Shown: positions 1 through 19,158 of the stretch, piece by piece
Layout of the letters: every line of letters begins with the position of its first letter
Numbering within the stretch: position 1 is the stretch's first letter
DNA from: Verrucomicrobiia bacterium
GTDB lineage: Bacteria > Verrucomicrobiota > Verrucomicrobiia > Limisphaerales > AAA164-E04
Direction: 5' to 3'
Length of the DNA stretch: 41,542 nt
Assembly (NCBI GenBank): GCA_014239995.1
Contig: JAAZXX010000001.1
Coordinates: 1-41,542, forward strand
Program-made: the position numbers and the translations under genes
Notes under the pieces: model-generated
The model's database searches: none
What the model saw: the letters and a program-made list of their open reading frames with translations, nothing else
What the model was told of the DNA's origin: nothing

Positions 1-3000
1 AGGCAATGCGCAGCAGCGTAGAGGGATGGCATGACATCTTCCTCCAGTTCCTCGTCGAGATAAATGATCTCAGGGCTATCGACGCGCGCCTGCAGGGCTT
101 TGACCTGTTCCTGCATCGTTTGTCCCGCATACACATGGCCTGATCCAAAATCCTTGATGACAAGGCAAACATCATCCTCTGCGGTAAAGGCACTCTCATA
201 GGCCTCAAGCAGCAGATCAACGCCCTTACGAGGCAGGGTGCCTCCCACAAAAAGAAACTTGAAGGATTTACGTGTGGGAAGTGCCATGGGTTGTACTTTC
301 GGATGAAAGCGCTTGGGATCAAATCCCAGATGCATGGTTTTCACCTTGTGTGAAGGGATACCTGAACGCAGATAAACGGAGCGGACATATTCGGTATAGG
401 CCCAGAATTCGTCCACTTGTTCGTGGTTTTCCACCCATGCCTTTGGCAGGCTCCCGAATTCCCACGGTTGCATGACAACGAGTTTTCCATGGGATGGGCG
501 TTTGAAATTGGGAGGCCACTGGTGTCGAACAACGAGATCTGTCGTTTTACCCTGATCCGTCTCTGAGGCCTCGTGGATCCTTGTGCCTTTCTCGGTCAAT
601 TCACAAGTGGAGACGGGTTCGACATCCACCGTATTCCCTTGATTCAGCTTCTCGACGAGGTGACGGTTGACATGGGCCAGACTGCTTGATCCCTTGAAGG
701 GTCCTTCCCATCGTACGGAAAAGTCTGCCGGTATGGTCTCAGCATGCTCTGAGGGCTTCCGTGCAGTTGCCGATTCTTTTTCCTCCGGCAGTAAGGATGA
801 GGCACCGTGTTGATGCTGCAGGTTTTCCAGTTTCTCGGCGAGTAGGTTTGATACATGCTGAGAGGAGAAGTTGGCTGTTACGTGTGCCCTGGCTGCCTCG
901 CCCTTTTGCTGTGCCTCATCGCGATGTTCAAACACATGACGCATCTGTTTCCGCAGGTGTTGCCCGCAAGGTTCGGCCCATTGATGTCCCTGGTAGAATT
1001 CAAAACCGGGATCGGTGGTTTCGATTTCTTTTAAGGTATATTCAAGCGGGTAGGCATTGGATGCCTTGAGGAATTCCGTGGTCCCGCTCCAGTTTGTCGC
1101 GATGACCGGCAGTCCCATCATCATCGCTTCGTGCTGCGGGCGTCCCCAGCCTTCACCGCGACTGGGTGCCACCAGGCACTGGGATGCCAGATACATCGAA
1201 GGCAGTTCCTGCCACGGCACCGCCTCGGGCAACAGCTCGATGCGGGGAAGGTCTTCTGGATTGATTTCCAGATGTCTTGCCATGCGGATGATGCACGATT
1301 GGATGGCTTTTGCGCTTCCTTGCTCGGGATGGTTGGACAGGGAAGCTCTCAGGGTGAGGACCACATTGTCCGAGGCTTTGAATTCCTGCATGTAGGCCTT
1401 TAATAAAACATCCCATCCCTTGCGCTGGATCCACTCAAAGACACTCAGGAATCGAAAACCCGCCTCAGACGGCATTTTCATCGGTGTGTGTCTGGCTGGA
1501 TCAAACCATGTGGCGTCGACACCTGCCGGTAGGATGCTGCATTTGTCGGGATTGACGCCGCTTTGAATAAAAGTCTCCCGATTGAACGTTGAGGGCACCC
1601 ATATCTCGTCCATGGTGTCCATGAACGGCAACCAGCTCTCCGGCAATCGATCCGTTTCAAACATGGTCCTACCCACGTGATGTTTGAATCCGTTGAGTCG
1701 TTCAAAGCAGGGGCCAGGGCCATGGCAGACCGAAATGCATCCTTCAGTTTCATTCTCAGCGGGAATCATTTTTTTAAGGGCCCGTTTTTCCCTTTTGCCG
1801 AGTCCTTCAACAAAATCGTTCGAGACGATGCTGCTGTTGTGATGGATGCGTATTGGCAGTCGATCTGCCAGCGGTACCACATACTGCATGGCTTCACTGC
1901 CGTAACCGCTTGCATTAAAGAAAGGTGCTCGCCAATGGATGCTCTTTGGCAACGATGCTGTTTCCTCTTTGATGGTAGGCGGTAGCGCTGTTCCAGGGGA
2001 TGCTTGTCCGGTTTCCCCAGACGCAGCCTTGTCTGATTCATCTGTCTTTTGGGATTCAACGGTGGCGTTCCAGTGGGTAGACACCTTTTGAAGCTCATCC
2101 AGACGATCAGGTGTCCAGAATTTTGAACACTTGGCAATGAAATCTTTTGCGGCATCCTGGCGCCCGTACTGACTCAGCAAGCAAAGGAGATTGGATGCAG
2201 CCGTCTCGTTCTCGGGTAGTTCCTGAAGGGATTGCTGGAGGCAGTGGATGGCAAAGGCGTGATCGCCCCCCCTTGTGTCGTGCCAGGGAATGGAAATATG
2301 GAAAGCGAGGTCGGCGAGGTCGGCCCACGCAACAGCCTTCATGGAGGCCTCCGTCGTATCCAAGGCATAGAGCTTGTTGATATCCACGCGCTTTCTGAAC
2401 TCACCTCGCACCTGCTCCTCTTCACGTGAGGAAAGGTTCGATTGCTGAGTGATTCCCTCGGTATTCTGGAAAAACAAGGAGAGCAGCTCTGGAACATGCA
2501 ACACACGAATACCTGCTTCTGCTGCACGCATCAGGATCTCGTAATCACCCACTGCCTTCCAGTGCTCATCAAACAGTTCAAGTTCCATCAAGCGGGACTT
2601 GCGCCAAAACTGAAGGCATCCGGTATAGCAGTAAAAAAGACTCAAGCCCGGATGATAATCGGGGTAGCGGACTTCCTTGATTACGTGGCTGGAGGGAAAC
2701 GCATCATTGGGCTTGGATGTCCACAGGCAATCCGCATAAGCCAGCCCCGTTTCGGGCTCCTTCTCCATGGCCTGTGCCAGGCGTTCAAAGGCATCGTTTC
2801 GGTGGGCATCGTCTGTATTGGCATTGACCACATATGTTCCACGAGCCTCTCGGACGCCGCGATTCCAGGCCTCATAGAGGGTTTCGCGTGTTTCGGTGCG
2901 TATGTAGCGCACATTGGCATGGTTTTTCTGAAAACGCTTGACGATGGCACCTTCATTCTCTGGTGATGCGCTGTCGATCACCAGGATTTCAAGTCGATTT

Positions 3001-5297
3001 CCGAGCGTCTGGTCCAGAAGGTTTTTAAGGCATCCTTCGATAAATCGCTCACTGGCGTAGGTCGATACCAACGCGGTCACCCATGGTTCCTCGACATCGT
3101 TTGTCACCTCTGATTTGACGACTGAGGATCCTTCCTTATTGACGTCATGATCCTCAACGACACGCTCACGTGTACTTTCTGTTGAGGCCTGCTGAACCCG
3201 TTTGATTTCTTCATGTGTCAGTTTTTCGGACTCCCATTCACCGGCCTGATGAAAGCAATTTGCAAGCTGGCTCAAGGTGGAGATATGATTGGGTTCTGAT
3301 TGCAGGCTACGTGCAAGGAATTGTGCGGCCTGCAGGTGATTCCCCTCACGCATGTGCCATTGTGCCATTTGACGATGCAGTGTGGCGTTCTCGGGATCCG
3401 CCAGAAGGGCGCGTTCCATCAGGTTCAGGAATGCTTCTTTCTGCAGGGTCTTGAATGCCGATTCAATGCCCTGTTTCAGGATTTCTGTATGGGTCTTGAT
3501 CGTGTCATCTGAGGCCATGGCCGCGGTGATGACCCATGCATGTTGCTCCAGGCTGAAGGCATGCTTCAGTGCCTGCAGGACATGTTTGGATTCGAGCATG
3601 TCCTCAGGTGCCTGCTTGGTAAATAATTCCTTTGCCTTTGCACCGTCGTTTTGATCGATTGCGGCTTCCACGGCCCTTATGAATGCCGTGGGTGTCATCT
3701 GCATGGCAGAGTTTGCAACCTGTGGATGGGATGCATTGCATGGCAATTTTTCCCGAAGACGTTCAGCTTCCTCAAAGTCAGGTTGTTCTTGCTTCAATTC
3801 ATCCAGGTATTGTTCCGCCAAATCCCATTGCTGACAGAGTGCCGCTGCCCGTGCCACGTGCCATGGCAGGCGCTGATGCTTGCATCCGTCCGTCTTGGCC
3901 TTGGCGAATTCCGATAAAGCCATCGCTCCATTCCCTTGTCCCAGGAAGGCGAGGCCAGACCAGAAACGTAGCCAAGGGTCGTTGGGATGCAGGTTCAAAT
4001 GCTCAAGAACGCCACCGATGTGCGCCAGGGGGCTCATTTCCGCCAGGAATGCATCAGCCTCCAATCCTTGTTGAAAATCGGTGCTGCTCAGGCTGAGACG
4101 GTAGGGGCGTCCCAGGTCTCCAAGTGAATTGACATAATCCGCAGCAGCAGATTGCTTGTGGGCCTGCTCCAGCCGCAAAGCTGAACCACGCATTTTCAAA
4201 TGGTGTTTGCGCTTGGGTTTTTGAAGGAGGTTTTCATACAGCGGATTGAGTTTGCGGGCTGCATTCTCGGCACCGTAAAGCTGGCGGCAGACGGTCTGGG
4301 CATTTTGTCCGATGCGTTTCCGCTCCTCAGGATGATGATAAAGGAATTCAATGGCCTCCTGGTAAGCTTTTTCCGATTGTACAACCAGGCCTGAAAAATG
4401 GTCCACCACAAGGCCCTTGATGCCACCATAGGGGAAGACGACCGGGGGAATGCCTGCATGCATGATTTCCTGCAGGTTGAGTTCTCCTGAGGCATAGGTA
4501 TCCTCGCAAAGCGGGTAGCCGTAGACATCCAATTGCTCCACAATGGAATCGATGCTTTCGACGTGTCCCAGGAAGGAAAAACGATCTTCTGTCTTGAGCA
4601 GTTTGGTTTGCTGCCTGAGCTCGCGTTCAATGCCAGAGCCGCAGACCATGAAATGGATTTTAGGCACGTCCACGCCAGAGCTCATTCGGACGAAATGGGG
4701 ATGCATTTTGTAGCGATGCACCGTACCAATGTATCCCACGTTAAAAGTCTCATGCTCCTTGGGCTTGACCTGGGCCACTCGGTCGAAGTCGGCAGGATCC
4801 ACGATCATGGCCGTTTTTTGGATTTTTTCCTCAACAGAGAGGTTTTGGAAGGCGGGAACTTCCGCATGTGTCGTGGGATTGGTCGCCACCGTCAGGTCGG
4901 CATACTGGATGAGTTCCGGAACAATAACCTGGGGCACGTGCTTTCCAGCAACGTGGCACCAGACCAGCATCCGTGTCTCCACCAGGTCCATGGCCATAAA
5001 CGCCCGCATGGCAGGAGAGTTCCACCAGTGCAGATGCACGAGATCGGCCTGTTGTATCTGGTAATTTAAAAAGGGTTTGCCGCAACCATGGTCCACCTCG
5101 TAGCCATAACTCTCTGCCAGGCGCATGCCCTCTGGTGTGGGGCGTTGAAGCGAAAGTATACGATGGTTGAATTGTGATTCCTGACTTGTGGAATGCTTGG
5201 ACAGGGCCAAGGCCACGCGTGATGCGCCTCCATTGGTCAGACGCTCGATGATGTGAAGGATGGTGTGTTTTCCGTCCCTGGAAATGGAGGCACTCAT
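1..5297 (-). CDS. Giant multi-domain glycosyltransferase (GT4-helical repeat-GT2-GT4-GT4), 3' end outside window
   Basis: Reading the minus strand from an ATG at 5297 gives an unbroken frame of about 1,765 codons to the left edge, where it is cut. I see four transferase modules. Residues about 1-380 form a GT-B/GT4 domain with an early GGASR motif and an EX7E-type acceptor region (SGELNLQEIMHAG, near 4470). Residues about 385-715 look like helical TPR-type repeats. Residues about 735-960 form a GT2/GT-A domain beginning WVTALVSTYASERF, with NANTDD as the DxD-like metal site near 2820. Residues about 1115-1500 form a second GT4 with GEGWGRPQHEAMMMG near 1150. From about 1520 a third GT4 starts (FVGGTLPRKG near 220) and is truncated. 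No signal peptide or membrane segment is visible, so the protein is probably cytosolic. Its position beside fliC suggests flagellin or surface glycan modification; this is inference, and donor and acceptor are unknown. Confidence 0.85.
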   Translation of the reverse strand, partial: MSASISRDGKHTILHIIERLTNGGASRVALALSKHSTSQESQFNHRILSLQRPTPEGMRLAESYGYEVDHGCGKPFLNYQIQQADLVHLHWWNSPAMRAFMAMDLVETRMLVWCHVAGKHVPQVIVPELIQYADLTVATNPTTHAEVPAFQNLSVEEKIQKTAMIVDPADFDRVAQVKPKEHETFNVGYIGTVHRYKMHPHFVRMSSGVDVPKIHFMVCGSGIERELRQQTKLLKTEDRFSFLGHVESIDSIVEQLDVYGYPLCEDTYASGELNLQEIMHAGIPPVVFPYGGIKGLVVDHFSGLVVQSEKAYQEAIEFLYHHPEERKRIGQNAQTVCRQLYGAENAARKLNPLYENLLQKPKRKHHLKMRGSALRLEQAHKQSAAADYVNSLGDLGRPYRLSLSSTDFQQGLEADAFLAEMSPLAHIGGVLEHLNLHPNDPWLRFWSGLAFLGQGNGAMALSEFAKAKTDGCKHQRLPWHVARAAALCQQWDLAEQYLDELKQEQPDFEEAERLREKLPCNASHPQVANSAMQMTPTAFIRAVEAAIDQNDGAKAKELFTKQAPEDMLESKHVLQALKHAFSLEQHAWVITAAMASDDTIKTHTEILKQGIESAFKTLQKEAFLNLMERALLADPENATLHRQMAQWHMREGNHLQAAQFLARSLQSEPNHISTLSQLANCFHQAGEWESEKLTHEEIKRVQQASTESTRERVVEDHDVNKEGSSVVKSEVTNDVEEPWVTALVSTYASERFIEGCLKNLLDQTLGNRLEILVIDSASPENEGAIVKRFQKNHANVRYIRTETRETLYEAWNRGVREARGTYVVNANTDDAHRNDAFERLAQAMEKEPETGLAYADCLWTSKPNDAFPSSHVIKEVRYPDYHPGLSLFYCYTGCLQFWRKSRLMELELFDEHWKAVGDYEILMRAAEAGIRVLHVPELLSLFFQNTEGITQQSNLSSREEEQVRGEFRKRVDINKLYALDTTEASMKAVAWADLADLAFHISIPWHDTRGGDHAFAIHCLQQSLQELPENETAASNLLCLLSQYGRQDAAKDFIAKCSKFWTPDRLDELQKVSTHWNATVESQKTDESDKAASGETGQASPGTALPPTIKEETASLPKSIHWRAPFFNASGYGSEAMQYVVPLADRLPIRIHHNSSIVSNDFVEGLGKREKRALKKMIPAENETEGCISVCHGPGPCFERLNGFKHHVGRTMFETDRLPESWLPFMDTMDEIWVPSTFNRETFIQSGVNPDKCSILPAGVDATWFDPARHTPMKMPSEAGFRFLSVFEWIQRKGWDVLLKAYMQEFKASDNVVLTLRASLSNHPEQGSAKAIQSCIIRMARHLEINPEDLPRIELLPEAVPWQELPSMYLASQCLVAPSRGEGWGRPQHEAMMMGLPVIATNWSGTTEFLKASNAYPLEYTLKEIETTDPGFEFYQGHQWAEPCGQHLRKQMRHVFEHRDEAQQKGEAARAHVTANFSSQHVSNLLAEKLENLQHQHGASSLLPEEKESATARKPSEHAETIPADFSVRWEGPFKGSSSLAHVNRHLVEKLNQGNTVDVEPVSTCELTEKGTRIHEASETDQGKTTDLVVRHQWPPNFKRPSHGKLVVMQPWEFGSLPKAWVENHEQVDEFWAYTEYVRSVYLRSGIPSHKVKTMHLGFDPKRFHPKVQPMALPTRKSFKFLFVGGTLPRKGVDLLLEAYESAFTAEDDVCLVIKDFGSGHVYAGQTMQEQVKALQARVDSPEIIYLDEELEEDVMPSLYAAAHC

Positions 5298-5641
5298 TGG
5301 CTGCGCTTTAAGGTCATTTGCCGTTACCGGCCGGTTGGCATGATTTTTTGTTCGAAAAGATCCTCTTGCTCTCTTTGCCATTTACATCACATGGTCTCAA
5401 AGGTGTCGTGTTGGTTTCAACGCAGGATCCGGAGTTCAAGGACTTGAGGGATGAAGACGATATCCATTTTTCTCTAGTTTCACGGGCGGTTACTTTGAAC
5501 ATTTTGCACCATCAACGCCAGGGGAGGATGACTGTGGTCTCCTGAATCAATGAGGGTAACTATTGTTGTGCGAATGAAACACCTCACTCCAACTCCATGG
5601 CCCCTGAAAAGGGAGAATAACGCTTCGGATGAAATACAGGC
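5298..5641. other. Intergenic gap between glycosyltransferase start and flagellin stop
   Basis: This 344-base stretch holds no convincing gene; short frames on both strands look like chance. Transcription from fliC should run leftward through it. A weak CCCT-GAAA-AGGG stem lies about 35-45 bases beyond the fliC stop (near 5602), but it has no clear T tract on the minus strand, so it is not a confident terminator. A perfect 10-base palindrome ACCGGCCGGT lies at 5326-5335, about 30 bases before the glycosyltransferase start. No sigma-54 promoter and no strong ribosome binding site were found for the glycosyltransferase, which may be read through from fliC. Confidence 0.5.
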
Positions 5642-6457
5642 CTACTGGAGAAGTCTCAGGACATTTTGTGGCAATTGATTGGCTTGGGCCAACATCGCTG
5701 TTCCTGATTGAACGAGGATGTTATACCTGGCGAATTCACTCGACTCCTTGGCCACATCGACATCCTGTATGCGCGACCTGGCCGCTGTCAGGTTTTCGCT
5801 TGCGATGGTTATTTGATCTGAAATCGCGTTCAGCCTGGACTGATAGGCACCTACTTGGGCACGGGATGTTGCAAGGCTTTTTGTGACTGTATCGATCTGA
5901 TCGAGGGCAGCATTGGCGTCTCCGGTGGTTAGCAAGTTACCTGCTGCAAGCACCGTTCTTATATCGGCGTCGAGATCGATCGCTTCCATGGTCATCGTGG
6001 CACCATCGGAATTCACCGTGACATTCATATCCGTACCGTCTGGGGCGAAAAGGGCTACTCCATTAAACTGTTTATCTATCATCCCATCGACATGGGTTTT
6101 AAGTTGTTGGTATTCTTGGTCATACAGCCCTAGATCGCTGGTCTGTCTGGTGGTGTCCATGGCCAGGAGTGACAGTTCACCCATGCGCTCCAGGGCGGTG
6201 GCGATGTTTTGCATGTAACCATCCTGCACCTGGGTGAAGGACGTTGCGTTGGCCACGTTGCCTTTCACCGCATCATGACGCTGAATCTGGGCGCTCATTT
6301 TCATTGAAACGGCGGTCCCACTTGCATCGTCAGAGATGGAAGTAATTCTGGATCCCGAACTCAATCGTGACAGGGATTTTTGTAGCTGCCCCTGATTGAC
6401 GTTCAGGTTGTTCGTGGTCGACTGCGCTGCGAGGTTTGTATTAATTACCAATGGCAT
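5642..6457 (-). CDS. fliC: Flagellin FliC, short form (271 aa)
   Basis: Flagellin forms the external filament and is exported unfolded through the flagellar type III apparatus. The N terminus (MPLVINTNLAAQSTTNNL) and following LSRLSSGSRITSISDDASG are classical D0/D1 sequence. The C terminus (SGTAMLAQANQLPQNVLRLL) is the conserved D0 polymerisation and export end. Only about 100 residues separate the conserved ends, so the variable D2/D3 domains are essentially missing and the filament surface is formed by D1. The start at 6457 has an AAGAAAGGA ribosome site on the minus strand. The gene follows fliW and csrA in the same direction, the arrangement in which CsrA represses flagellin translation and FliW relieves it. 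No fliD or fliS is present nearby. Confidence 0.97.
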   Translation of the reverse strand: MPLVINTNLAAQSTTNNLNVNQGQLQKSLSRLSSGSRITSISDDASGTAVSMKMSAQIQRHDAVKGNVANATSFTQVQDGYMQNIATALERMGELSLLAMDTTRQTSDLGLYDQEYQQLKTHVDGMIDKQFNGVALFAPDGTDMNVTVNSDGATMTMEAIDLDADIRTVLAAGNLLTTGDANAALDQIDTVTKSLATSRAQVGAYQSRLNAISDQITIASENLTAARSRIQDVDVAKESSEFARYNILVQSGTAMLAQANQLPQNVLRLLQ

Positions 6458-6539: not shown

Positions 6540-6770
6540 CTACTTTGCCATGACTGGCGTTTTTAATTTTGTAAGGTCAGTATCTGGAGCCGTGGCTGCC
6601 TTCTGATTACTGAACCTGATCTCATCATGGATTTCCTTGCGGAAAATGGGTATGTCCTTGGGCGCATCAACCCCGATTTTCACCGTCTCCTTATCCGATT
6701 TCAGGATATGGACTGTGATTTGGCCATCAATGATGATGCTTTCTCCTGTCTTGCGTGATAAAACTAACAT
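6540..6770 (-). CDS. csrA: Carbon storage/flagellin translational regulator CsrA
   Basis: CsrA is a small homodimeric RNA-binding protein that blocks ribosome access at GGA motifs in mRNA leaders. The 76-residue protein starts MLVLSRKTGESIIIDG, with the invariant Leu4 and Arg6 of the RNA-binding surface, and continues to IPIFRKEIHDEI, which holds the second conserved Arg. After that comes a loose polar tail of about 25 residues (SNQKAATAPDTDL...), somewhat longer than in the shortest CsrA proteins. I chose the ATG at 6770 because it gives the canonical MLVLSR start; an in-frame TTG two codons upstream is less likely. It lies between fliW (36-base gap) and fliC, so FliW is expected to sequester it until flagellin is exported. 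Confidence 0.96.
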   Translation of the reverse strand: MLVLSRKTGESIIIDGQITVHILKSDKETVKIGVDAPKDIPIFRKEIHDEIRFSNQKAATAPDTDLTKLKTPVMAK

Positions 6771-6806: not shown

Positions 6807-7262
6807 TTATTCACCCAGAGGGGCATCAACGGCATATTCAACGGCATTTTTGACGACGAATTGAGCACCCATTTGGTTGTCTCTATTCAAGATGATAGGA
6901 CCCTTCAAGTTGGCTGTGGCTCTGCCGTCTGGATGTACGGTTACTACCTGAAACAACATCAGGCTTTCCAAGTTCTCGATCTTAAGCAAGTCCAGATCCT
7001 CACGGGAAAAGTCGGGCTTGTAGTTCGGGAAACCTACTTGGGAGGGAATCAAGAGAAATGATAATTCAGGGTCTTCAAGCATTTGTAACCACCAGAAAGG
7101 TCCATCCTCCTCTTTGTCGAGGAGGCAATAGTTCTTGATGTTTTCAAACCCCATGATTCCGTGTGGGAATCGGAATGTTTGTTTTGATACCACCCCGTTC
7201 TTAGGTTTATTCTCTGTTTGCACAGCGTCCATGATGGCAGGGCTCAGCAATTGGTATGCCAT
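6807..7262 (-). CDS. fliW: Flagellar assembly factor FliW
   Basis: FliW binds flagellin and CsrA alternately, so that flagellin synthesis is coupled to its export. The conserved FRFPHGIMGFENIKNYCLL block (residues about 30-50) and the C-terminal NLKGPIILNRDNQMGAQFV motif are typical; 151 residues is close to the family norm. The ATG at 7262 has a good ribosome site (AGGAG, 6-base spacer). A second in-frame ATG at 7232 would give the N-terminal length seen in most FliW proteins. The first codons (7261-7246) also spell a sigma-54-like sequence, which leaves some doubt about which start is used. Likely cotranscribed with csrA and perhaps fliC. Confidence 0.93.
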   Translation of the reverse strand: MAYQLLSPAIMDAVQTENKPKNGVVSKQTFRFPHGIMGFENIKNYCLLDKEEDGPFWWLQMLEDPELSFLLIPSQVGFPNYKPDFSREDLDLLKIENLESLMLFQVVTVHPDGRATANLKGPIILNRDNQMGAQFVVKNAVEYAVDAPLGE

Positions 7263-7797: not shown

Positions 7798-8181
7798 ATG
7801 ATCGAAGGCTTATTCAATCAATCCAACTACATTGCGACCAAAAAAATGATGGACGCAACGACCTTACGCCAGGAGGCCATCGCCAGCAACATCGGTAACG
7901 TCCAGACGCCGGGCTACAAGCGGATAGACGTCGCAAATGACTTCAAGGATGCATTTGCCAAGGCACTCAATGGTGGAGGTACTGAAGCACTGAAACAACT
8001 TGCTCCCGGTATTGAGGTCGACAGTGATGCTACCGAGCGTGATGAAACTGGAAACACAGTGGATCTTGAAAAGGAAATTCTCCACCTCAGTGAAAATCAA
8101 ATTGCCCACCATCTGGAGGTCAAGATTGTGACGGGCACCCTCTCCAAGCTGCGACTTGCGATTACCGGTAGACCTTCGTAA
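7798..8181 (+). CDS. flgB: Flagellar proximal rod protein FlgB
   Basis: FlgB is a component of the proximal part of the periplasmic rod. The N-terminal helix carries the rod-family signature RQEAIASNIGNVQTPGYKR (residues about 24-42), followed by VANDFKDAF. The C-terminal helix ends LEVKIVTGTLSKLRLAITG. At 127 residues it is of ordinary length. No ribosome binding site is visible in the short leader. It is the first gene of the long flgB-flhF operon behind a sigma-54 promoter and is followed 23 bases later by flgC, the standard order. Confidence 0.96.
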   Translation: MIEGLFNQSNYIATKKMMDATTLRQEAIASNIGNVQTPGYKRIDVANDFKDAFAKALNGGGTEALKQLAPGIEVDSDATERDETGNTVDLEKEILHLSENQIAHHLEVKIVTGTLSKLRLAITGRPS

Positions 8182-8204
8182 ACAATTTACCCTAAAGATT
8201 TAAT

Positions 8205-8648
8205 ATGAATAATATGATACGCATCATGCCAGGAGCTGACACCGCCGTTTCCGCCTTGAATGCGGAGCGGATGAAGCTCGAAATCATTTCTCAGAACATT
8301 GCCAACGCCAATGTGACCAGGACCGAGGAAGGAGGGCCATACCAGCGTAAAGAAGTGGTGTTTGAATCCTTTCTCCACGAGTCGCTGAACAAGGAAGGCT
8401 CGCAGTCCGATGCACCCATGATGGTCAAGGTAGGGGGCATTGAGACGGACGAAACACCTGGCGTTACCATTCATGACCCCAGCCACCCGGACGCAGATGA
8501 CGATGGTAACGTGCAACTCCCCAACATGAACATCCATAAGGAAATGGTGGATATGATCCAGGCGTCACGCGCCTATGAGGCAAATCTTTCCTCTATCAAG
8601 TTCGCACGAAGCATGGCCGTTCAAACCCTGAATATTGGCCGCTCCTGA
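8205..8648 (+). CDS. flgC: Flagellar proximal rod protein FlgC
   Basis: FlgC is a rod component next to FlgB. The N terminus has AERMKLEIISQNIANANVTR (residues about 23-42), then GGPYQRKEVVFESF, both characteristic. The C terminus has NMNIHKEMVDMIQASRAYEANLS (near residues 105-128), the conserved C-terminal rod helix. Length is 147 residues. An alternative ATG lies three codons downstream. In most bacteria fliE follows flgC; here the next gene starts 29 bases later and is fliF with an N-terminal extension. Confidence 0.96.
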   Translation: MNNMIRIMPGADTAVSALNAERMKLEIISQNIANANVTRTEEGGPYQRKEVVFESFLHESLNKEGSQSDAPMMVKVGGIETDETPGVTIHDPSHPDADDDGNVQLPNMNIHKEMVDMIQASRAYEANLSSIKFARSMAVQTLNIGRS

Positions 8649-8677
8649 TTCATCAGGCATAGAAGGGTATACTGATT

Positions 8678-10474
8678 TTGGAACCGATCACACAGGCCAG
8701 TGGATTCATGGAATCCGCCATGAATATCGCCAACCAGGCTGCACAAAAGCAGGCTGACAACCCCAACAGCTTCCTGCCTGAGGCTTTCCTGGAACAGGCC
8801 GGGAAATTCCAAGAGGCACAAAGTGCCATCGGTAGTTTTGATACCGTGGCGACCGGCTCGGCTGGAACAGGCTTTGCCAACATGCTACAGCAACTCATAC
8901 AGCTTAGGGATCAACTGATCGGCATCTGGAAACAGCTTGGTCTGAACCAGCGCATCATTGTTTCCGCCGCCGGTATTGGTATTTTCGCCGGATTGATGGG
9001 TATTGCCTACTGGTCTGGGCAGACACAGTACGCCCTGCTTTACGGCAACCTTTCACTCAAGGAACTGGATACCATCCGTAACCAGTTGGACTCGGCAACC
9101 ATTTCCCATAAAGTGGGTGCACGTGGCAACTCCATACTGGTACCTTCCGATCAGGTTCACGATGCACGCATCTATCTTGCAGGCAAAGGATTGCCCAATA
9201 AGGGGGATAAGGTCGGACTAGAAATTTTTGATCGCCCTTCTTTTGGTTTGAGTAACATGCAACAACGGGTCAATCACACCCGCGCCATCCAGGGCGAACT
9301 TTCAAAAACCATCACCCAGATGGCTGGTGTTGAGGCTGCGCATGTCATGGTGGTCATGCCCGAGAGCAGGCTCTTTGTCGACAATCAGTCCCAGGCCTCT
9401 TCTTCAGTGTTCCTTGAGATCATGGGGATGAATCAAATTCCCAAAGAACAGGTGCGGGCCATTCAGTTTCTCGTTTCAAGTGCGGTTGAGGGATTGGTGC
9501 CTGACCGGGTTTCGGTCACGGATTCGAGGGGACAATTGCTGAGTGATGAGCCCGGGGACGATACCTTGACATTTCTCTCTGATCGCCAACTGGAATCCCG
9601 TCAGCAGCTGGAGTCCTACCTCTCGCGCAAGGCAGAGGACATGCTCACCAGGGTGCTTGGGCCTGGTCAGGCCATCGTGCGGGTATCTGCGGAGATCAAC
9701 CGGGAAACCATCACGCGTTCGGATATCATTTACGACCCGGAAACCGTGCCACGTACCACCTCCGAGATCACGGAAACCACCATCACCCAGGCCCCTTCCC
9801 TTGTGAGCACCAATAACCCCCCCAGTCTTGCCAGTGGAAAAACGATGGATCGTACCACCAAGGACAACGAGTTCGCCGTTGGATCTCAAACCAACGACTT
9901 TGTCCAGGTTGCCGGAGGGTTGAAGCGCATCACCGCGGCTGTCTTCGTGGCGATGAAGAAAGATGCAGAAAAGGTTTCCATCAGCAGGACTGCGGAGGAA
10001 CTCCAAAGCATCGAACGTATCGTCAGTCGTGCCTTGGGCATCACCAACAGTGTGGAGAACCTCACGGTAGAAGAAATTGAATTTCATGCGGACGGTAGTC
10101 TTCAGCAACCGTTGGCCCTTCAGGAGAAGCCGAGTTTCAGTGTTTGGAGAAATCACAGTGAGTGGGTGACACTTGGCAAGCAGATCGGGCTCCTGCTTCT
10201 GACCCTGGGGGTTCTCTGGGTCTTTGTGCGGACCTTTAAGAAAACCCCGGTGGAGACCATTCCCATTGGTGTTCCACTGGATTCCATGGACGATTTCATG
10301 GGGGGCCGTGGTGGCAATGGAGGTGGGCGTGGGCATTCCAATTTTTCAATCCATGAACCCATGCCACCCGATGAACGCATTGAAGCCATGAATCGGTTGA
10401 TCAAGGAAAACCCCGAGAACATGACGCATGCCATCCAGTCGTGGCTCCAGGAGGACACCGCTAACAGTAATTAG
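8678..10474 (+). CDS. fliF: Flagellar MS-ring protein FliF with N-terminal extension
   Basis: FliF assembles the MS ring in the inner membrane. Residues about 94-113 are the first membrane segment, then the ring-building domains (for example FDRPSFGLSNMQQRVNHTRA and RAIQGELSKTI). The second membrane segment is near 497-517 (GLLLLTLGVLWVFV). The C-terminal tail ends ENMTHAIQSWLQED, the FliG-binding region. The TTG start at 8678 is backed by AGAAGGG with a 10-base spacer. It places about 68 extra residues before the usual FliF beginning (MLQQLIQLRDQLIGIWKQ, at the ATG 8882, which has only a weak ribosome site). The extension is polar and helical-looking. It occupies the position where fliE is normally encoded, but I cannot align it with FliE by eye. 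Confidence 0.95.
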   Translation: MEPITQASGFMESAMNIANQAAQKQADNPNSFLPEAFLEQAGKFQEAQSAIGSFDTVATGSAGTGFANMLQQLIQLRDQLIGIWKQLGLNQRIIVSAAGIGIFAGLMGIAYWSGQTQYALLYGNLSLKELDTIRNQLDSATISHKVGARGNSILVPSDQVHDARIYLAGKGLPNKGDKVGLEIFDRPSFGLSNMQQRVNHTRAIQGELSKTITQMAGVEAAHVMVVMPESRLFVDNQSQASSSVFLEIMGMNQIPKEQVRAIQFLVSSAVEGLVPDRVSVTDSRGQLLSDEPGDDTLTFLSDRQLESRQQLESYLSRKAEDMLTRVLGPGQAIVRVSAEINRETITRSDIIYDPETVPRTTSEITETTITQAPSLVSTNNPPSLASGKTMDRTTKDNEFAVGSQTNDFVQVAGGLKRITAAVFVAMKKDAEKVSISRTAEELQSIERIVSRALGITNSVENLTVEEIEFHADGSLQQPLALQEKPSFSVWRNHSEWVTLGKQIGLLLLTLGVLWVFVRTFKKTPVETIPIGVPLDSMDDFMGGRGGNGGGRGHSNFSIHEPMPPDERIEAMNRLIKENPENMTHAIQSWLQEDTANSN

Positions 10475-10489
10475 CCCAAGACTTGCGAT

Positions 10490-11539
10490 ATGCCAGTGAG
10501 TGAAGAAATACAGTCACGAAACCCCGCCGCACGATCGCGCGTTGAGGGGATGAATAAGTTTCAAAAGCTGGCCGCTTTGCTGGTGATCCTGGGCCCTGAC
10601 AATGCATCTGGCATCCTGAAAAGTCTGGATGATGCAACCGTGGAGTCCGTCGTCTCGGAGATATCCAGCATGCGTCTCCTGAGTTCCCGTGAGCAGGAGG
10701 ATATCCTGAAGGAATTTTCTCGTCTCATCAACCATGCCAGTTCATCGGTTTCCGGTGGCATGGATATTGCCAGAGAAACCCTTGAACGCTCGGTGGGACA
10801 TTACAAGGCGGCCAATGTATTGGGTAAAATAGCACCCAAGACCTCCGAGTCCGAGGCCTTGAGTCACTTGTTGGATATGGATCCCGGGCAGCTCTTCAAC
10901 TTGATCAAGGACGAGCAGGATCAGACCATCGCATTGATCCTCAGTTATTTCCCGGCAGATCAGGCTGCCAGTATTTCAGAACGTCTGGATGACGACAAGC
11001 GGGTGCATGTGTTGGAGCGCCTTGCAACCCTTGCTCCCACCCCGGTTGCCATTGTTGAAAAGGTGGTCAAGGTTGTACTCTCCAAGGCCAAGCGAGCGGT
11101 GCCGCAGACGGTCAGTCACTCCGGTGGCGTGCGGGCAGCGGCTGCCATGCTCAACGCAATGGGTAAGGAAGTCAGTCAAAGTATTCTTGCTGTCATGGAT
11201 GAAAAAAATGCCGAACTCGGAGCAGCCATCCAGCAGAAAATGTTTACCTTTGAGGATTTTATTCACCTGGATGCGCAGGATGTACAGAAAATCCTGCGCG
11301 ATGTGGACATGAAGGACCTCTCTCTGGCACTGAAGAATGTCTCTGAGGCCCTGAGCAATTTTGTGCTTTCCTGCATGTCCAGGCGTGCGGCTGAGTCTGT
11401 TACCGAGGAAATGGAATTCATGACCTCCACCAAACCCAAGGAAGTCGAGGCTGCCCAGCTCCGGATTGTCGAGTGTGCCCGCAACCTGGAGAGCCAGGAG
11501 GAAATTGATCTCTCCAATGCCATGGGAGGTTCTTCATGA
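10490..11539 (+). CDS. fliG: Flagellar motor switch protein FliG
   Basis: FliG is the rotor protein of the C ring that binds the FliF tail and contacts the MotA stator. The frame starts at ATG 10490; a start at 10550 (MNKFQKLAALLVILGPD) would give the more typical N terminus. The middle domain has DEQDQTIALILSYFPADQA where the family has EHPQTIALIL. The C-terminal torque domain has FEDFIHLDAQDVQKILRDVD (residues about 251-270) and then MSRRAAESVTEEMEFM, with the charged residues expected for stator contact. At 349 residues it is full length. It overlaps fliH by four bases (ATGA), indicating translational coupling. Confidence 0.96.
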   Translation: MPVSEEIQSRNPAARSRVEGMNKFQKLAALLVILGPDNASGILKSLDDATVESVVSEISSMRLLSSREQEDILKEFSRLINHASSSVSGGMDIARETLERSVGHYKAANVLGKIAPKTSESEALSHLLDMDPGQLFNLIKDEQDQTIALILSYFPADQAASISERLDDDKRVHVLERLATLAPTPVAIVEKVVKVVLSKAKRAVPQTVSHSGGVRAAAAMLNAMGKEVSQSILAVMDEKNAELGAAIQQKMFTFEDFIHLDAQDVQKILRDVDMKDLSLALKNVSEALSNFVLSCMSRRAAESVTEEMEFMTSTKPKEVEAAQLRIVECARNLESQEEIDLSNAMGGSS

Positions 11540-12216
11540 ACCCTTCGCATGTGGTCCTTGAATGTCCGGGTTCCTTTCCCTTGCGGGAAGTGACACTTTC
11601 CATGAAGGAATCCCATTGGGATTCTATCAAGGCACATTTCAAGGGGCAGCAGGAACGGGATTTCGAGTGCAATCGGCGCGATCTGGAATTGGAAATACGC
11701 GGTCAAGTGGAGCGGGAGCATCACGAGTCGGCCATGCAGATTCGTGACATGATCCAGTCTTTTCAGGAGGCTATTCCCAATGCCTTTCTGGAAATGGAGC
11801 AGGCACTCTCGCACATGGCACTGACCCTGACCCGTAAACTGGTGGCCGACATCCCATTGGATGCGGTACGTGTGCGTGCTGTCATTGCTCAAGCACTCAA
11901 GGAGCTTGAAAAAGACGTTGATACCCAGATTCAACTCCATCCCGAGGACCTTGCATTGCTTGGTGACGCCCTTGGGGAAAATCCCGCTGCTACCTTTGAG
12001 CATCAGGCAAAAATACAGTTTATTTCCGATACATCCATTACCCGTGGAGGTTGTTATGTAAAGACTCCCTTTGGGGACTTTGATTCCACGGTAGAGTCAA
12101 AGTGGGAACAGATAGAAGCTTTGATTGAGCAGCAGATGAAACAAACCGCCCAGTTGAAGCAAGAGACCTCGGAAAGGATTCTTCCTACGAACCTTCCTGG
12201 AAAAACAGATACATGA
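11536..12216 (+). CDS. fliH: Flagellar export stator protein FliH
   Basis: FliH is the peripheral stalk that anchors and regulates the export ATPase FliI. Residues about 25-110 are a charged, coiled-coil-like stretch (ERDFECNRRDLELEIRGQ, QVEREHHESAMQIRDMIQS), followed by the conserved C-terminal part with LAL-type helices and QIQLHPEDLALL (about 134-145), which resembles the FliH/YscL C-terminal domain. The gene shares four-base overlaps with fliG upstream and fliI downstream, and its place between them is diagnostic. Sequence conservation in this family is low, so position carries much of the weight. Confidence 0.9.
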   Translation: MNPSHVVLECPGSFPLREVTLSMKESHWDSIKAHFKGQQERDFECNRRDLELEIRGQVEREHHESAMQIRDMIQSFQEAIPNAFLEMEQALSHMALTLTRKLVADIPLDAVRVRAVIAQALKELEKDVDTQIQLHPEDLALLGDALGENPAATFEHQAKIQFISDTSITRGGCYVKTPFGDFDSTVESKWEQIEALIEQQMKQTAQLKQETSERILPTNLPGKTDT

Positions 12217-13583
12217 GCACAGCACTTTCAGTTCCAAAACTAAATCTGGCACGTTTCCTTTACTCGATGAGCCAAGTGGATTCCTTCAACCCGGTGGCGC
12301 GACGAGGCAAGGTGGTCAAGGTGACCGGATCGGTGGTACAATCCTCCGGCCCCCTTGCTTCCATCGGTGACCTTTGCCGTATTCGAGGAAGGCACAGCGA
12401 GAAAGAAATCCTTGCCGAGGTCGTGGGTTTTCATGATCAAAGCGTTCTGCTTATGCCATTTTCCGACATGCAAGGGGTGCGTCCCGGGAGTGTCGTGATC
12501 AGTGAGGGCAGTCCCCTCCAGGTTCGAACCGGGTTTGACCTCATGGGGCGTGTGCTCAACGGCCTGGGCCAACCTATCGACGGCAAGGGCCCCGTATGTG
12601 GGGATGGATTCGCATCACTCAAGGCTTCCCCTCCGCATCCTCTACGGCGCCAACGGATTCAACAGCGTTTCACGACCGGGATCAAGGTTCTGGATACGTT
12701 TGTTCCCTGTGGCGTAGGTCAACGTCTTGGTATTTTTGCCGGAAGTGGTGTGGGTAAATCCACATTGCTTGGAATGATTGCCGGGCAGGCCGAGGCCGAC
12801 ATCAACGTCATCGCTCTGATTGGAGAACGTGGACGGGAACTGAGGGAGTTCCTTGAGAGGGACATGTCTCCAGAGGCTCGCAAAAAATCGGTGGTCGTGG
12901 TGGCTACATCTGACGAGACCCCCATCATGCGGCTCAAAGGTGCCCACACTGCCATGGCCATATCCGAATATTTCCGAGACCAGGGACTCAATGTTTTATT
13001 GATGATGGATTCCGTCACGCGCTTTGCGATGGCCCAGCGCGAGGTGGGCTTGTCCGTTGGAGAACTTCCGGCGACCAAGGGCTATCCGCCGTCCGTATTT
13101 GCCATGCTTCCACAATTGCTGGAGCGGGCTGGAGCGGGCGAAAACGGGGCCATCACCGGGCTTTTTACCGTTCTGGTTGAGGGGGATGACATGAACGATC
13201 CGGTTGCGGACCACGTTCGTTCCGTATTGGATGGCCACATTGTGCTGAGCCGAGAACTTGCTTTCCGAAACCACTACCCTGCCGTTGACGTGCTTCACAG
13301 TGTCAGCCGCCTCTTTGAGGATCTCAGTGAAGGAAAAACACAGCAGTGGATTCACAAGGCCCGTGAGGCCATGGCGGAATTCCATGAGCACCGTGACATC
13401 ATCTCCCTCGGGGCCTACAAGCAAGGGTCAAATCCAAGCTTGGACCGGGCTATTCGTCTGCGACCTGCTTTGAACGCGTTTCTCATGCAATCCGTTCATG
13501 AAGGGTTTTCGATCGATGAAAGCCTGACATTACTGAAGGAGGCCCTGGAAGATAAGGAACCTGTTGCCGCCGATAAACGCTGA
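12213..13583 (+). CDS. fliI: Flagellum-specific export ATPase FliI
   Basis: FliI is the hexameric F1-type ATPase that energises loading of export substrates at the flagellar type III gate. The Walker A motif GSGVGKST lies at residues 177-184, preceded by the family phrase TTGIKVLDTFVPCGVGQRLG. The Walker B strand is NVLLMMDSVTRFAMAQRE (about 267-284), followed by the GLSVGELPATKGYPPSVFA motif specific to type III ATPases. At 456 residues it is full length. It starts at an ATG overlapping the fliH stop (ATGA). Confidence 0.98.
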   Translation: MSTALSVPKLNLARFLYSMSQVDSFNPVARRGKVVKVTGSVVQSSGPLASIGDLCRIRGRHSEKEILAEVVGFHDQSVLLMPFSDMQGVRPGSVVISEGSPLQVRTGFDLMGRVLNGLGQPIDGKGPVCGDGFASLKASPPHPLRRQRIQQRFTTGIKVLDTFVPCGVGQRLGIFAGSGVGKSTLLGMIAGQAEADINVIALIGERGRELREFLERDMSPEARKKSVVVVATSDETPIMRLKGAHTAMAISEYFRDQGLNVLLMMDSVTRFAMAQREVGLSVGELPATKGYPPSVFAMLPQLLERAGAGENGAITGLFTVLVEGDDMNDPVADHVRSVLDGHIVLSRELAFRNHYPAVDVLHSVSRLFEDLSEGKTQQWIHKAREAMAEFHEHRDIISLGAYKQGSNPSLDRAIRLRPALNAFLMQSVHEGFSIDESLTLLKEALEDKEPVAADKR

Positions 13584-13599
13584 ATCTCAAGGAGTCTGA

Positions 13600-14040
13600 A
13601 TGAAACGATTTGTCTTTAAGTTGGATACGGTCCTGCAGTTGCGAAATCAACACGAACGCAAGGCGATTAACCAGCATGCGCAGGCCCTCCATCGTGTCCA
13701 GGCCCTCCGGCAGAAGCTGGATGCCCTTCAGATGGGACTGCAGGCCGAGCATCGACGTTATCAGGAGGCCCTGACCCGCTCTCAATCCATCTCCACCGTG
13801 CAGGGCTTTCGTTCTGGCTTTGAATATTTTGAGCAGCGCCTCTCCGAAACGCAGGGGCACCTGTCGGAGGCAGAGGCCATTCTGGAGAAGCACAAGGACC
13901 TCCTGACCTCCGCCCGGCGTGAGCGGGAGGTGTTGGAAAAGTATAAGGACAGGCTTGCCGGTGTGCACGCACAGACGGTCAATAAGCATGACCAGTTGTT
14001 CCTGGACGAGTTGTCCCTGCGGGCTGGCTCCGTGACCTAG
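13600..14040 (+). CDS. fliJ: Flagellar export protein FliJ
   Basis: FliJ is the coiled-coil central stalk that links the FliI hexamer to the FlhA gate. The N terminus (MKRFVFKLDTVLQLRNQHE) is a typical FliJ opening, and the rest is an almost continuous charged helix with heptad-like spacing through KHKDLLTSARREREVLEKYKD. At 146 residues it has the usual length. The start at 13600 follows AAGGAGT with an appropriate spacer. It lies 16 bases after fliI, its expected neighbour. Confidence 0.93.
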   Translation: MKRFVFKLDTVLQLRNQHERKAINQHAQALHRVQALRQKLDALQMGLQAEHRRYQEALTRSQSISTVQGFRSGFEYFEQRLSETQGHLSEAEAILEKHKDLLTSARREREVLEKYKDRLAGVHAQTVNKHDQLFLDELSLRAGSVT

Positions 14041-14048
14041 GGTTTCGT

Positions 14049-14651
14049 ATGAAAAAACTGCTGCAATCCAGCCTGTTCGCCGTGCTCCTCGGTGGATTTC
14101 TCTTCTTTGGGGTAACCTTTTGGATGCTAGACGGGGAGATCTCAAATTCGAGCCCAGGTGTGCGTGCCGCTATCGAAAAAATCCAAAAAAAGAATACCTC
14201 TGAGGATCCCGAACAGGGCTCTTCCATCGACGCGCCTTCCTGGGCATATGACAACCCTGAATGGGACCAGATTTATACGGAAATAGTATACTTGAGGAGT
14301 GATTTGAAAGAAAGGGCGGCGAAGGTCAAGAAGCAGGAAGACAATCTCAAGGTGACGTTTGCAGAACTCAAGAAAATGACCAATCTCGTTAACAAATCCA
14401 TCATCACCATTTCAGAGAATGAAAAAAAGAACATTGCCAAGATGCAGGCCTTGTTCAAGACCCTCGAACCGGCACAAACCGCTGAGATTCTCGATCCCAA
14501 GAGCCCTGAAGAGGTTGCCAAGGTGTTTGCCATGATGAAACCCAGTGAATTCGGGGAGGTCGTGCAGGTCTGGCTTGGCGGTACACCTGATCAAAAGAAG
14601 AAAGTCATGAAGATTCTCGATGAATACGAGAAGATAAATCCTGAAAAATAA
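14049..14651 (+). CDS. MotE-like flagellar protein (MgtE N-domain-like, COG3334 type)
   Basis: A 200-residue protein with an N-terminal membrane anchor (residues about 9-27, AVLLGGFLFFGVTFW). Next come a polar linker, a coiled coil (about 80-130, with KKQEDNLKVTFAELKKM) and a C-terminal alpha-helical domain. That domain carries LEPAQTAEILDPKSPEEVAK and VFAMMKPSEFGEVVQVW, the repeated pattern seen in MgtE N-terminal domains and in MotE. In other bacteria proteins of this type sit between fliJ and fliK and act as periplasmic chaperones or stator partners. Position here matches exactly. The precise role in this organism is inferred. Confidence 0.82.
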   Translation: MKKLLQSSLFAVLLGGFLFFGVTFWMLDGEISNSSPGVRAAIEKIQKKNTSEDPEQGSSIDAPSWAYDNPEWDQIYTEIVYLRSDLKERAAKVKKQEDNLKVTFAELKKMTNLVNKSIITISENEKKNIAKMQALFKTLEPAQTAEILDPKSPEEVAKVFAMMKPSEFGEVVQVWLGGTPDQKKKVMKILDEYEKINPEK

Positions 14652-14754
14652 ATCCTGAAAAAACGCACTGAACCATTTTTCTTCCCAGTGCTTGGCACTT
14701 CTTGACGCCTCAACCAGCCCCATCCATCGCAACGAACCATATGCTTTTTATGAC

Positions 14755-16098
14755 ATGAATGCTTCACTGATACAGGAATTTCCAAAGCTTGAGTCACGGG
14801 AAAAATCCCGGCGTGCCAAGCAAGATACGGCAGCGGATACCGATGAATCCTTTCGCGAGCAGCTCGATTGTGAATTGCTGCACCTGGCGGCTCATCCGCG
14901 GGTAGAAGGGGTGAATCAGGGGGATGAACCGTGGTTTGCCCCCACCGGTGCCTTGAGCCATCCGTCAAAACCCTCCGAACCTTCCCTTGCTCAAGTAACA
15001 GGGCAGGTTCCGGGTTCGCCGAAAACCCCGGCCAGGGGTATTTCGGAACCTTTTGCCGACCGAGGGCAAGCCGCCTCGTCATTCGAAGCAGCAAAAGCCA
15101 CCAACAAAGCCGATCCACAGGGAAGTCATGCCAAAACAGATGCCACCAGGCAAAGCACAGGCGGCAAAAATGACTCTGCTGCAGATGGGAATCAACAGGA
15201 AGGGGCAAAAATTGCCCCTCGTCCTGTCGCTTCCTCGACGGCTCCCCTGACATCGGGTGCGGTCAAATCCGTCGAAAACGCACTTGCCAGCGCCAGTAGC
15301 GCCGCTTCCGCAGCGGCACAGGCAGTACCTGTCTATCATGGCACGCCTCATGCTTCGGGTGCAAATCGCTCAGGAAATGTATCCCTGCAGCAGGCAACAC
15401 AGGATCAAGCAGCCATGACAGCACAGGTGGGCAAAAATCAATCGCAAGCCAAGGGTGAATCACTCCCGGAGGGGCAACGTGCCGCATCCGTGGCGACGGT
15501 AACCCGTGTGGCTGGGGTGGAAACAAGCTCGAGTGGTTCCTCCTCCACGGGAGGAGGATTCGACCCGGCCCATCAATTTGGTCGTCAGGATTTTGGGGGT
15601 GAATGGCAAGTGCATTCCAGTGCCAAGTCATCGATTGCGGCCACCCAGGCCATTGCCACGGTGGATTCCATCCGGAAAATCCAGTCCATGATTCAGGAGC
15701 AGGCCATCGTGATGAAGCAAAGTCCAGGGCAGCCCATGCAGGTGCTCGTGCGTCCGGATGCGAATATGGCGCTTTACCTCACGCTGCAGCAGCATGAATC
15801 GGATGTCATGGTGGCTGTTCGCATGGACCAGGCGACCTCCGGCTTGCTGAAACCTCACTGGGCGGAACTTCAGAAAGAATTGGGGCAGCAAGGCATTCAA
15901 CTTGGAGACCCTGAGCTGGATTCAGACCACGGCATGTCGGGCGGTAACGCCGATACGGATCAGGAAACCGGAACGCCATCGAATTCCATGCATCCGCAGG
16001 GGAGTCCCCTGAAAACTTCCGCTGCGGGCTTGGCAGCCGAGCCATCGGAAGGCGTGGAAGAGGAACGCGCCGAGGGGAGCTTGCTCTCCTGGGCTTGA
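14755..16098 (+). CDS. fliK: Flagellar hook-length control protein FliK
   Basis: FliK is a secreted ruler that measures the hook and switches FlhB export specificity. The first 300 residues are low-complexity, rich in Ala, Ser, Gly, Gln and Pro, as in other FliK proteins. The conserved C-terminal domain holds GQPMQVLVRPDANMALYLTL and MVAVRMDQATSGLLKPHW, matching the family's Leu-x-Pro-type core and helix. The start is uncertain: I use the ATG at 14755 (447 aa); an in-frame TTG at 14692 would add 21 residues, and neither has a good ribosome site. It lies before flgD and flgE, whose hook it controls. Confidence 0.9.
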   Translation: MNASLIQEFPKLESREKSRRAKQDTAADTDESFREQLDCELLHLAAHPRVEGVNQGDEPWFAPTGALSHPSKPSEPSLAQVTGQVPGSPKTPARGISEPFADRGQAASSFEAAKATNKADPQGSHAKTDATRQSTGGKNDSAADGNQQEGAKIAPRPVASSTAPLTSGAVKSVENALASASSAASAAAQAVPVYHGTPHASGANRSGNVSLQQATQDQAAMTAQVGKNQSQAKGESLPEGQRAASVATVTRVAGVETSSSGSSSTGGGFDPAHQFGRQDFGGEWQVHSSAKSSIAATQAIATVDSIRKIQSMIQEQAIVMKQSPGQPMQVLVRPDANMALYLTLQQHESDVMVAVRMDQATSGLLKPHWAELQKELGQQGIQLGDPELDSDHGMSGGNADTDQETGTPSNSMHPQGSPLKTSAAGLAAEPSEGVEEERAEGSLLSWA

Positions 16099-16130
16099 AT
16101 GATTTTAACAGATTTTATGATACCCAAAAA

Positions 16131-16616
16131 ATGAGTGCCATCACTTCAAACGTCACGGCAGGGGCCAATGGACAATTTGGAAACCTGTCACAGGTTTCCA
16201 ATGGCCTGAACGAGGTAAATCAGGAGGATTTCTTTAAATTATTAACCGTGGAGCTTTCTTCACAGGACCCGCTTGAGCCGAAAAAAGACTCGGAGTTTCT
16301 TTCCCAGGTCATGCAGATCTCCAGCCTTGAGCAGGCCAGGGCCATGCAGTCGGATTTGGCTGCCATGAGATTGGAGCAGCAGATCACACAGGCCAACGGC
16401 ATGCTGGGTCGTGAGGTTGATTTCGGGGAGTCGCTCGATGGTAAAGTCTCCGCCGTGAAATTCCAGGATGGTCGGCCCATGATCGAGGTAGACGGAGAAC
16501 TTTACGATCTGCAGGAGCTGCTCTCCATTAATTTACCAGAGGAAACTGTCGGTCCCAAGGATGGGTTTTTTAACTACTCACATCCCATGATTAAACAGGA
16601 AAAACACGATGCTTAA
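16131..16616 (+). CDS. flgD: Flagellar hook capping/assembly protein FlgD
   Basis: FlgD is the scaffold cap that allows hook subunits to polymerise. The motif VNQEDFFKLLTVELSSQDPLEPKKDSEFL, found in the first third, is the FlgD signature. It is followed by QISSLEQARAMQSDL and a short C-terminal part (LGREVDFGESLDGKV). At about 161 residues it is a short FlgD, without the larger Ig-like C-terminal domain of enteric versions. The ATG at 16131 is used; a TTG at 16095 overlapping the fliK stop (TTGA) would add 12 residues and is a realistic alternative. It overlaps flgE by 8 bases. Confidence 0.94.
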   Translation: MSAITSNVTAGANGQFGNLSQVSNGLNEVNQEDFFKLLTVELSSQDPLEPKKDSEFLSQVMQISSLEQARAMQSDLAAMRLEQQITQANGMLGREVDFGESLDGKVSAVKFQDGRPMIEVDGELYDLQELLSINLPEETVGPKDGFFNYSHPMIKQEKHDA

Positions 16617-17466
16617 TTCACTCAATACCGGGGTCAGTGGACTCCAGCAATTTCAAAGTCAGATCGACTTGATTGGTAACAACATTGCCAACGTCAACAC
16701 CACGGGCTACAAAAGCGCCCGTCTGAACTTTGCCGATACTTTCGGGGAAGCGATGGTTTCAGGATCGGGAGGAAACGTTGCCTCGCAATTTGGAAATGGC
16801 GTTGTCAGTGCCGGTGTGACCACCTCTTATGCCGGAGGCGGGATTACCGAGACGGGTCACGGAAGCGACCTGGCCATCGAAAACGGTAAGGGCTTTTTCA
16901 TCGTCAAGAACGCTGCAAATGAAGAGTCATTTGCCACCCGTGCGGGCAATTTCAGGGAGGACAATCAGGGCTACCTCGTCAACTCGCAGGGATACCGTGT
17001 TCAGGGCGCGCTCGGAGACGGTAACGGCGGTGAGGGGGATCTTCTCTTCCGTGATGATCCATCCATCCGTGGTGGTTTCGATCCCGGCAACGCGGGTTTC
17101 GTCGGTGCGGAAGTGACCATGGACGGGCGTATCCTGATGCATTTTGATGACCAGCGGAGTTATCAAGGTGGCCAGATCCTGCTCCAGAGCTTTGCCGCTC
17201 CGCAGGAACTCAACAAGCTGGGTGGCAATCTGTATTCCAACCTTGAAGCGGCCACCCCGGTGAACGATGCCGGGCAGGCCTTTGGGTCCACACCCGGCTC
17301 GGGGCATGTGGGGCATATCCGCTCGCGTGCCCTGGAAACATCCAACGTGGATCTTACCGGAGAATTTTCCTCCCTGATCATGGCACAGCGTGCTTTCCAG
17401 GCCAACGCACGCATGATTTCCACCAGCGACCAGTTGCTCCAGGAACTGGTCAACCTGCCGCGCTGA
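16609..17466 (+). CDS. flgE: Flagellar hook protein FlgE, short form
   Basis: FlgE builds the flexible hook. The N terminus has the rod/hook signature DLIGNNIANVNTTGYKSARLN without its usual long middle domains. The C terminus ends ETSNVDLTGEFSSLIMAQRAFQANARMIS, the conserved C-terminal helix. At 285 residues it is much shorter than enteric FlgE (about 400), so the outer D2 domain is probably missing. Its place after flgD argues for hook rather than distal rod; flgG and flgF are separate genes at 29592-31181. The ATG lies inside the flgD end, after ACAGGA with a suitable spacer. Confidence 0.93.
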   Translation: MLNSLNTGVSGLQQFQSQIDLIGNNIANVNTTGYKSARLNFADTFGEAMVSGSGGNVASQFGNGVVSAGVTTSYAGGGITETGHGSDLAIENGKGFFIVKNAANEESFATRAGNFREDNQGYLVNSQGYRVQGALGDGNGGEGDLLFRDDPSIRGGFDPGNAGFVGAEVTMDGRILMHFDDQRSYQGGQILLQSFAAPQELNKLGGNLYSNLEAATPVNDAGQAFGSTPGSGHVGHIRSRALETSNVDLTGEFSSLIMAQRAFQANARMISTSDQLLQELVNLPR

Positions 17467-19146: not shown

Positions 19147-19158
19147 ACAAGGAATGTT

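Follow-up and report, generated by a model that had tools for sequence, protein, structure and literature searches.

The peptide S-glycosyltransferases SunS and ThuS glycosylate a cysteine residue of a small bacteriocin. GmaR of Listeria monocytogenes transfers GlcNAc to flagellin (PMC9638930) and also serves as the anti-repressor of MogR. In Clostridioides difficile type B, three transferases encoded beside fliC (GT1, GT2 and GT3) attach GlcNAc followed by two rhamnoses (PMC5207246), and the Caulobacter protein FlmG joins an N-terminal flagellin-binding TPR domain to a glycosyltransferase (GT) domain (PMC7591256). These flagellin glycosylation systems use separate enzymes, whereas the locus described here belongs to an order, the Limisphaerales, that as a whole seems to fuse the priming enzyme with several extending ones. 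We read its giant gene as encoding a flagellin glycosylation enzyme of about 2,584 residues and five modules, A to E, in which module E would prime and the other modules would extend the glycan on the same chain, and we regard this reading as probable. It would represent what seems to be a new, order-wide and modular variant of flagellin O-glycosylation. A search of the open-licence literature returned no described multi-domain flagellin transferase fusion, which points weakly to novelty, and no report of glycosylated flagella in Verrucomicrobiota.

The window, that is the whole stretch of DNA analysed (41,542 nucleotides), is the entire contig C142 of a MAG comprised of 1,030 contigs, with a completeness of 80.8%. 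Its relevant features are:

3..5381, minus strand: giant multi-glycosyltransferase gene, 5' 1,793 codons (ORF; 3' end on contig C499)
4233..5270, minus strand: module A, GT4, residues 38-383 (Pfam and module profile)
3102..4232, minus strand: helical/TPR region between A and B, residues 384-760 (Pfam TPR_19 at 677-717)
2331..3101, minus strand: module B, GT2, residues 761-1017 (Pfam and module profile)
786..1967, minus strand: module C, GT4, residues 1139-1532 (module profile, EX7E motif and structural model)
3..716, minus strand: module D, GT4, residues 1556-1793, truncated where the contig ends (module profile)
5642..6457, minus strand: flagellin, 271 aa, the proposed acceptor (Pfam Flagellin_N and Flagellin_C)
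6540..6770, minus strand: CsrA-like protein, 76 aa, between fliW and flagellin (translation, sequence MLVLSRKTGESIIID)
6807..7262, minus strand: FliW, 151 aa (Pfam)
7798..37009, plus strand: flagellar structural and export cluster (rod, FliF, FliG, FliI, FliM, FlhA, sigma factor, MotB, FlgA, FlgI, FlgN, FlgK and FlgL-like)

Structure and completion of the giant gene

The ATG-started reading frame of 1,793 codons is truncated at the contig edge. Given the local GC, the probability that it is free of stops by chance is about 2e-34, and the remaining two minus-strand frames across it contain 41 and 74 stops. The rest of the gene, which an earlier note made from the window sequence had placed to the left of the window, was located by a homology search of the same genome on contig C499 (L053), as a frame of 786 aa that starts with RAEGFGLPVLEAMACG and takes in the last base of the contig. 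On the module D profile the window ends at position 244 and C499 picks up at position 250, with about five residues absent in between; C499 then supplies the remainder of module D, a fifth transferase (GT2, module E) and TPRs. Joined by homology, with no overlapping sequence between the contig ends, the two parts give a protein of about 2,584 aa, of which about 791 codons lie beyond the window. This length fits that of the complete relative L033 (genome G010), a protein of 2,565 aa with modules A-B-C-D-E and a flagellin beside it, with which the window protein aligns collinearly over 1,791 residues.

Pfam matches on the window protein comprise Glycos_transf_1 (203-362), TPR_19 (677-717), Glycos_transf_2 (771-879) and a GT4-type match (1397-1510), and module boundaries were taken from profiles built on relatives. 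Together they bear out the single long minus-strand frame and the order GT4-helical-GT2-GT4-GT4 that the earlier note had read from the letters; its claim of four transferases on one polypeptide stands as regards the single chain but undercounts, the complete gene having five (C499 and L033).

Catalytic motifs are intact in modules B, C, D and E. Module B retains VIDSAS, NANTDD and GDYE, and its nearest solved relative is chondroitin synthase, GmaR scoring only 1e-6. Modules C and D belong to the GT4 family by their Glycos_transf_1/GT-B fold and EX7E motif (EGWGRPQHE at 1410 in C; EGFGLPVLE, encoded on C499, in D). The model of the C-D tandem displays two GT-B-like domains whose Foldseek matches are GT4 enzymes (pLDDT 88.6, pTM 0.57), and, because the mutual arrangement of the two domains is of low confidence, no channelling between them is claimed. 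Module A keeps the C-terminal Glu of the GT4 motif and gives a strong Glycos_transf_1 match despite an incomplete EX7E, but since the first Glu is replaced (YASGELNLQE) its activity is uncertain. A copy of module B in L034 (7492-8262, minus strand) has NTRD for NTDD and GHHE for GDYE, with loss of the DXD-like and base residues, and is probably inactive. A Maf-type or SPINDLY-type identity was dropped, as the window protein and L033 gave no Pfam match to a Maf domain or to Glyco_transf_41 (SPINDLY/OGT, GT41); Glyco_transf_41 is present in a neighbouring protein of L106.

Module E resembles enzymes acting on proteins and peptides

The C-terminal module of the giant protein consists of a GT2 domain and a TPR tail. 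When its profile was compared with PDB sequences, the best enzyme match was the GT domain of GmaR (22ao, 8e-65), followed by SunS (4e-44), while a designed TPR protein outranked GmaR through its repeats only. Residues D39, D86 and D88 are invariant in alignment A2, and C499 has VVDTGS and LDADE. The AlphaFold2 model (GT2 plus TPR, pLDDT 93.5) is closest to ThuS/SunS (7e-17) and also matches the TPR structure of GmaR, including the helical part of structure 7x9r. Module E is therefore of the GmaR type, a GT2 domain with intact Asp and DXD residues followed by TPRs, with GmaR as its closest solved enzyme; it remains below the curated SunS cut-off (TIGR04195; 75.1 bits versus 350). It groups with enzymes that have protein or peptide acceptors and, because it is GmaR/SunS-like in both sequence and fold and GmaR acts on flagellin, it is the likeliest priming enzyme, the one that would place the first sugar on flagellin.

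The 34 fused E modules of Verrucomicrobiota form one clade in the E tree (support 100/100), and the fusion is therefore probably ancestral in this phylum; G017 and G043, of the same order, have module E as a shorter, separate protein. The giant-gene family is also contained in records titled Akkermansia muciniphila (L059, L064, L066, L072 and L075). Module E of L066, L072 and L075 is nested in the Limisphaerales clade, and these titles are probably wrong.

Gain and loss of modules

Across the order the C-terminal D-E pair, often as C-D-E, is nearly constant, while the N-terminal modules vary and include, besides GT4 and GT2, FkbM methyltransferase, pyruvyl transferase, GT9, GT11 and WbsX. A profile search with the C-D alignment revealed that the C-D tandem is widespread beyond Verrucomicrobiota, whereas the homologue scan of genome contigs with the whole window protein as query gave no matches. 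Among the C-D loci, flagellin is encoded in L078 and L098 (from genomes labelled Chlorobi or Melioribacteraceae), L083 and L106 (labelled Chloroflexi), L087 and L088 (labelled Desulfacinum or Deltaproteobacteria) and L128; five of these loci (L078, L083, L087, L098 and L106) carry a separate E-type GT2-TPR gene within the same flagellin locus, that of L087 (Desulfacinum infernum DSM 9756) being a split form of the system. Even larger arrays occur: an Ignavibacteriae-labelled contig (L081, 2-12712, plus strand) has an open frame of 4,236 aa with eight GT-like modules, and L110 encodes a protein of 3,577 aa with five GT4 modules.

Three genomes (G002, on contig C32, G005 and G007) are missing C-D and have kept A-B-E or B-E. 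The E tree joins the window to G002, then to G005/G007, then to G010, and the C-D tree makes G010 (L033) the sister of the window (support 98). The simplest reading of these few genomes would be two independent losses of C-D, one in the G002 and one in the G005/G007 lineage.

These losses bear on a reading to which we give a little less than an even chance, namely that flagellin is glycosylated, but that the modules are independent transferases, some of them inactive, on TPR scaffolds, that fusion provides co-expression or localisation only, and that the order of the glycan is independent of the order of the modules. It is compatible with priming by module E and competes with our reading only over the cooperation of the modules. 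In its favour are the incomplete EX7E of module A, the degenerate module B of L034, and the retention of B and E where C-D was apparently lost, which argues against a strict chain of dependence; the intact motifs of B, C, D and E in the window protein and the D-E order conserved throughout the order argue against it.

The flagellin neighbourhood

The window flagellin, which has N- and C-terminal helical domains and a short middle, is located 260 bp upstream of the giant gene on the same strand. The gene order is fliW-csrA-flagellin-giant, all on the minus strand with the giant gene last, and the plus-strand flagellar cluster adjoins. The position of the CsrA-like gene between fliW and flagellin suggests that FliW/CsrA regulate the translation of flagellin and perhaps that of the giant gene as well. 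The order fliW-flagellin-giant was also found in L034 and L042. For 12 of the 22 loci of the order, a flagellin-like gene lies no more than 8 kb away, many of the others being on contigs too short to judge, and one paralogue (G002:C5) lies among sugar-nucleotide genes; the earlier note had considered that homologues might be located consistently in LPS or capsule loci, and this is not the pattern found. The same genome as the window encodes a second flagellin on contig C72. In L039 (9715-15275, minus strand), three consecutive flagellins of 423-680 aa adjoin the giant gene, compared with 271 aa in the window.

The G002:C5 paralogue (L035, G002:C5:34000-53000) has the modules C-D-E, with a GDP-mannose dehydratase, an epimerase and a pyruvyl transferase as neighbours. 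No flagellin was found on its 185-kb contig, and it may serve a different acceptor.

An acceptor other than flagellin in motile cells, such as a hook, sheath, adhesin or S-layer protein, is improbable. Co-occurrence with flagella does not by itself identify the acceptor, and in the G046 and G054 loci flagellin is 7 and 14 kb away, but the giant gene of the window, like those of L033, L034 and L042, has flagellin as its immediate neighbour, and flagellin is the substrate of the known relative GmaR.

Co-occurrence with flagella in the Limisphaerales

The survey covered 58 Limisphaerales genomes from 48 families, 31 with and 27 without flagellin. Module E was present in 25 of the 31 flagellin-positive and none of the 27 flagellin-free genomes (p = 5e-11), or, with one count per family, in 21/24 versus 0/24 (p = 2e-10). 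Relatives of the window protein, counted at E < 1e-50, showed the same restriction (21/31 versus 0/27, p = 2e-8). Flagellin-free genomes gave weaker or partial matches only, to the window protein in G051 (8e-31) and to module E in G020 (9e-31) and G055 (9e-43). Six flagellin-positive genomes, some of them incomplete MAGs, have no module E, which is therefore not required for flagella. The restriction to flagellin-bearing genomes, together with the linkage to flagellin, fits a flagellin glycosylation system.

The same distribution makes it unlikely that the protein is a general surface polysaccharide enzyme (LPS, capsule or exopolysaccharide) for which the proximity of flagellin is incidental. 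The GT2 and GT4 modules are of generic kinds, chondroitin synthase is the closest solved relative of module B, and the G002:C5 paralogue has sugar-nucleotide neighbours and no flagellin; but the giant-gene family is carried by none of the 27 flagellin-free genomes, adjacency to flagellin is repeated in several phyla, and module E groups with protein- and peptide-acceptor enzymes. Synthesis of a lipid-linked polysaccharide was dropped, as Pfam scans of the window protein and L033 showed no lipid-carrier or export domain. That the long frame is an artefact of assembly or annotation, a mis-join of several transferase genes, can practically be dismissed: the MAG is fragmented and the gene divided between two contigs, but, rather than the several separate genes that the earlier note had allowed for, unbroken giant frames of 1,757-3,734 aa and fusions in the same order recur in many independently assembled genomes, and L033 is collinear.

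Proposed mechanism

Under the five-module enzyme reading, a soluble protein with the order GT4(A)-TPR-GT2(B)-GT4(C)-GT4(D)-GT2+TPR(E) would bind newly made flagellin in the cytoplasm through module E, which would attach the first sugar directly to a flagellin side chain, presumably in O-linkage, judging from GmaR. Extension of the chain prior to flagellin export would fall to the GT4 tandem D/C and then to B, with A contributing if it is active. The constant C-terminal D-E or C-D-E part would make a conserved glycan core, and the variable N-terminal modules would set an outer, species-specific part. The modules, their fusion, gain and loss, the fold and family of module E and the link to flagella can be read from the sequences, whereas the acceptor, the sugars, the sequence of steps and channelling, if there is any, are inferred. 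Flagellin as target, proposed by the earlier note from location, gains support from the co-occurrence with flagella, the neighbourhood conserved in several phyla and the GmaR-like module E.

The assembly-line synthesis of a defined oligosaccharide that the note suggested appears plausible. The stricter form, in which the order and number of modules would fix the length and composition of the flagellin glycan, E priming, upstream modules extending or tailoring it (methyl, pyruvyl) and species diversifying by gain and loss of modules at linkers, as in modular polyketide synthases, is offered only tentatively and seems doubtful. The apparently independent loss of C-D in two lineages, based on the E and C-D trees and few genomes, suggests that no obligatory co-linear chain operates. 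If the fusion of priming and extending transferases works as we propose, the order of the modules could reveal the structure of the glycan and allow it to be redesigned, so that protein O-glycosylation would have its counterpart of the polyketide synthases. The proposal also predicts glycosylated flagella in Verrucomicrobiota.

Comparison with known systems

GmaR, the best solved enzyme match, shares with module E a GT2 domain and, behind it, a TPR superhelix; it possesses a single GT plus an anti-repressor domain, whereas module E is the last module of a five-GT protein. SunS and ThuS, with a GT2 domain and a helical tail, have the closest fold, but their acceptor residue is a bacteriocin Cys and module E is far below the SunS model cut-off. 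The C. difficile system is a precedent for transferases encoded beside flagellin and for sequential addition of sugars, but its enzymes are separate proteins whose only Pfam GT domains are of the GT2 type, one of them also carrying a methyltransferase. FlmG is likewise a modular flagellin transferase with TPR and GT parts, though with a single GT domain, an N-terminal TPR and a pseudaminic acid pathway. Chondroitin and heparosan synthases and Cps3D-type capsule multienzymes also carry several catalytic domains per polypeptide; they make repeating polysaccharides, have no link to flagellin and possess fewer GT modules than the giant protein described here.
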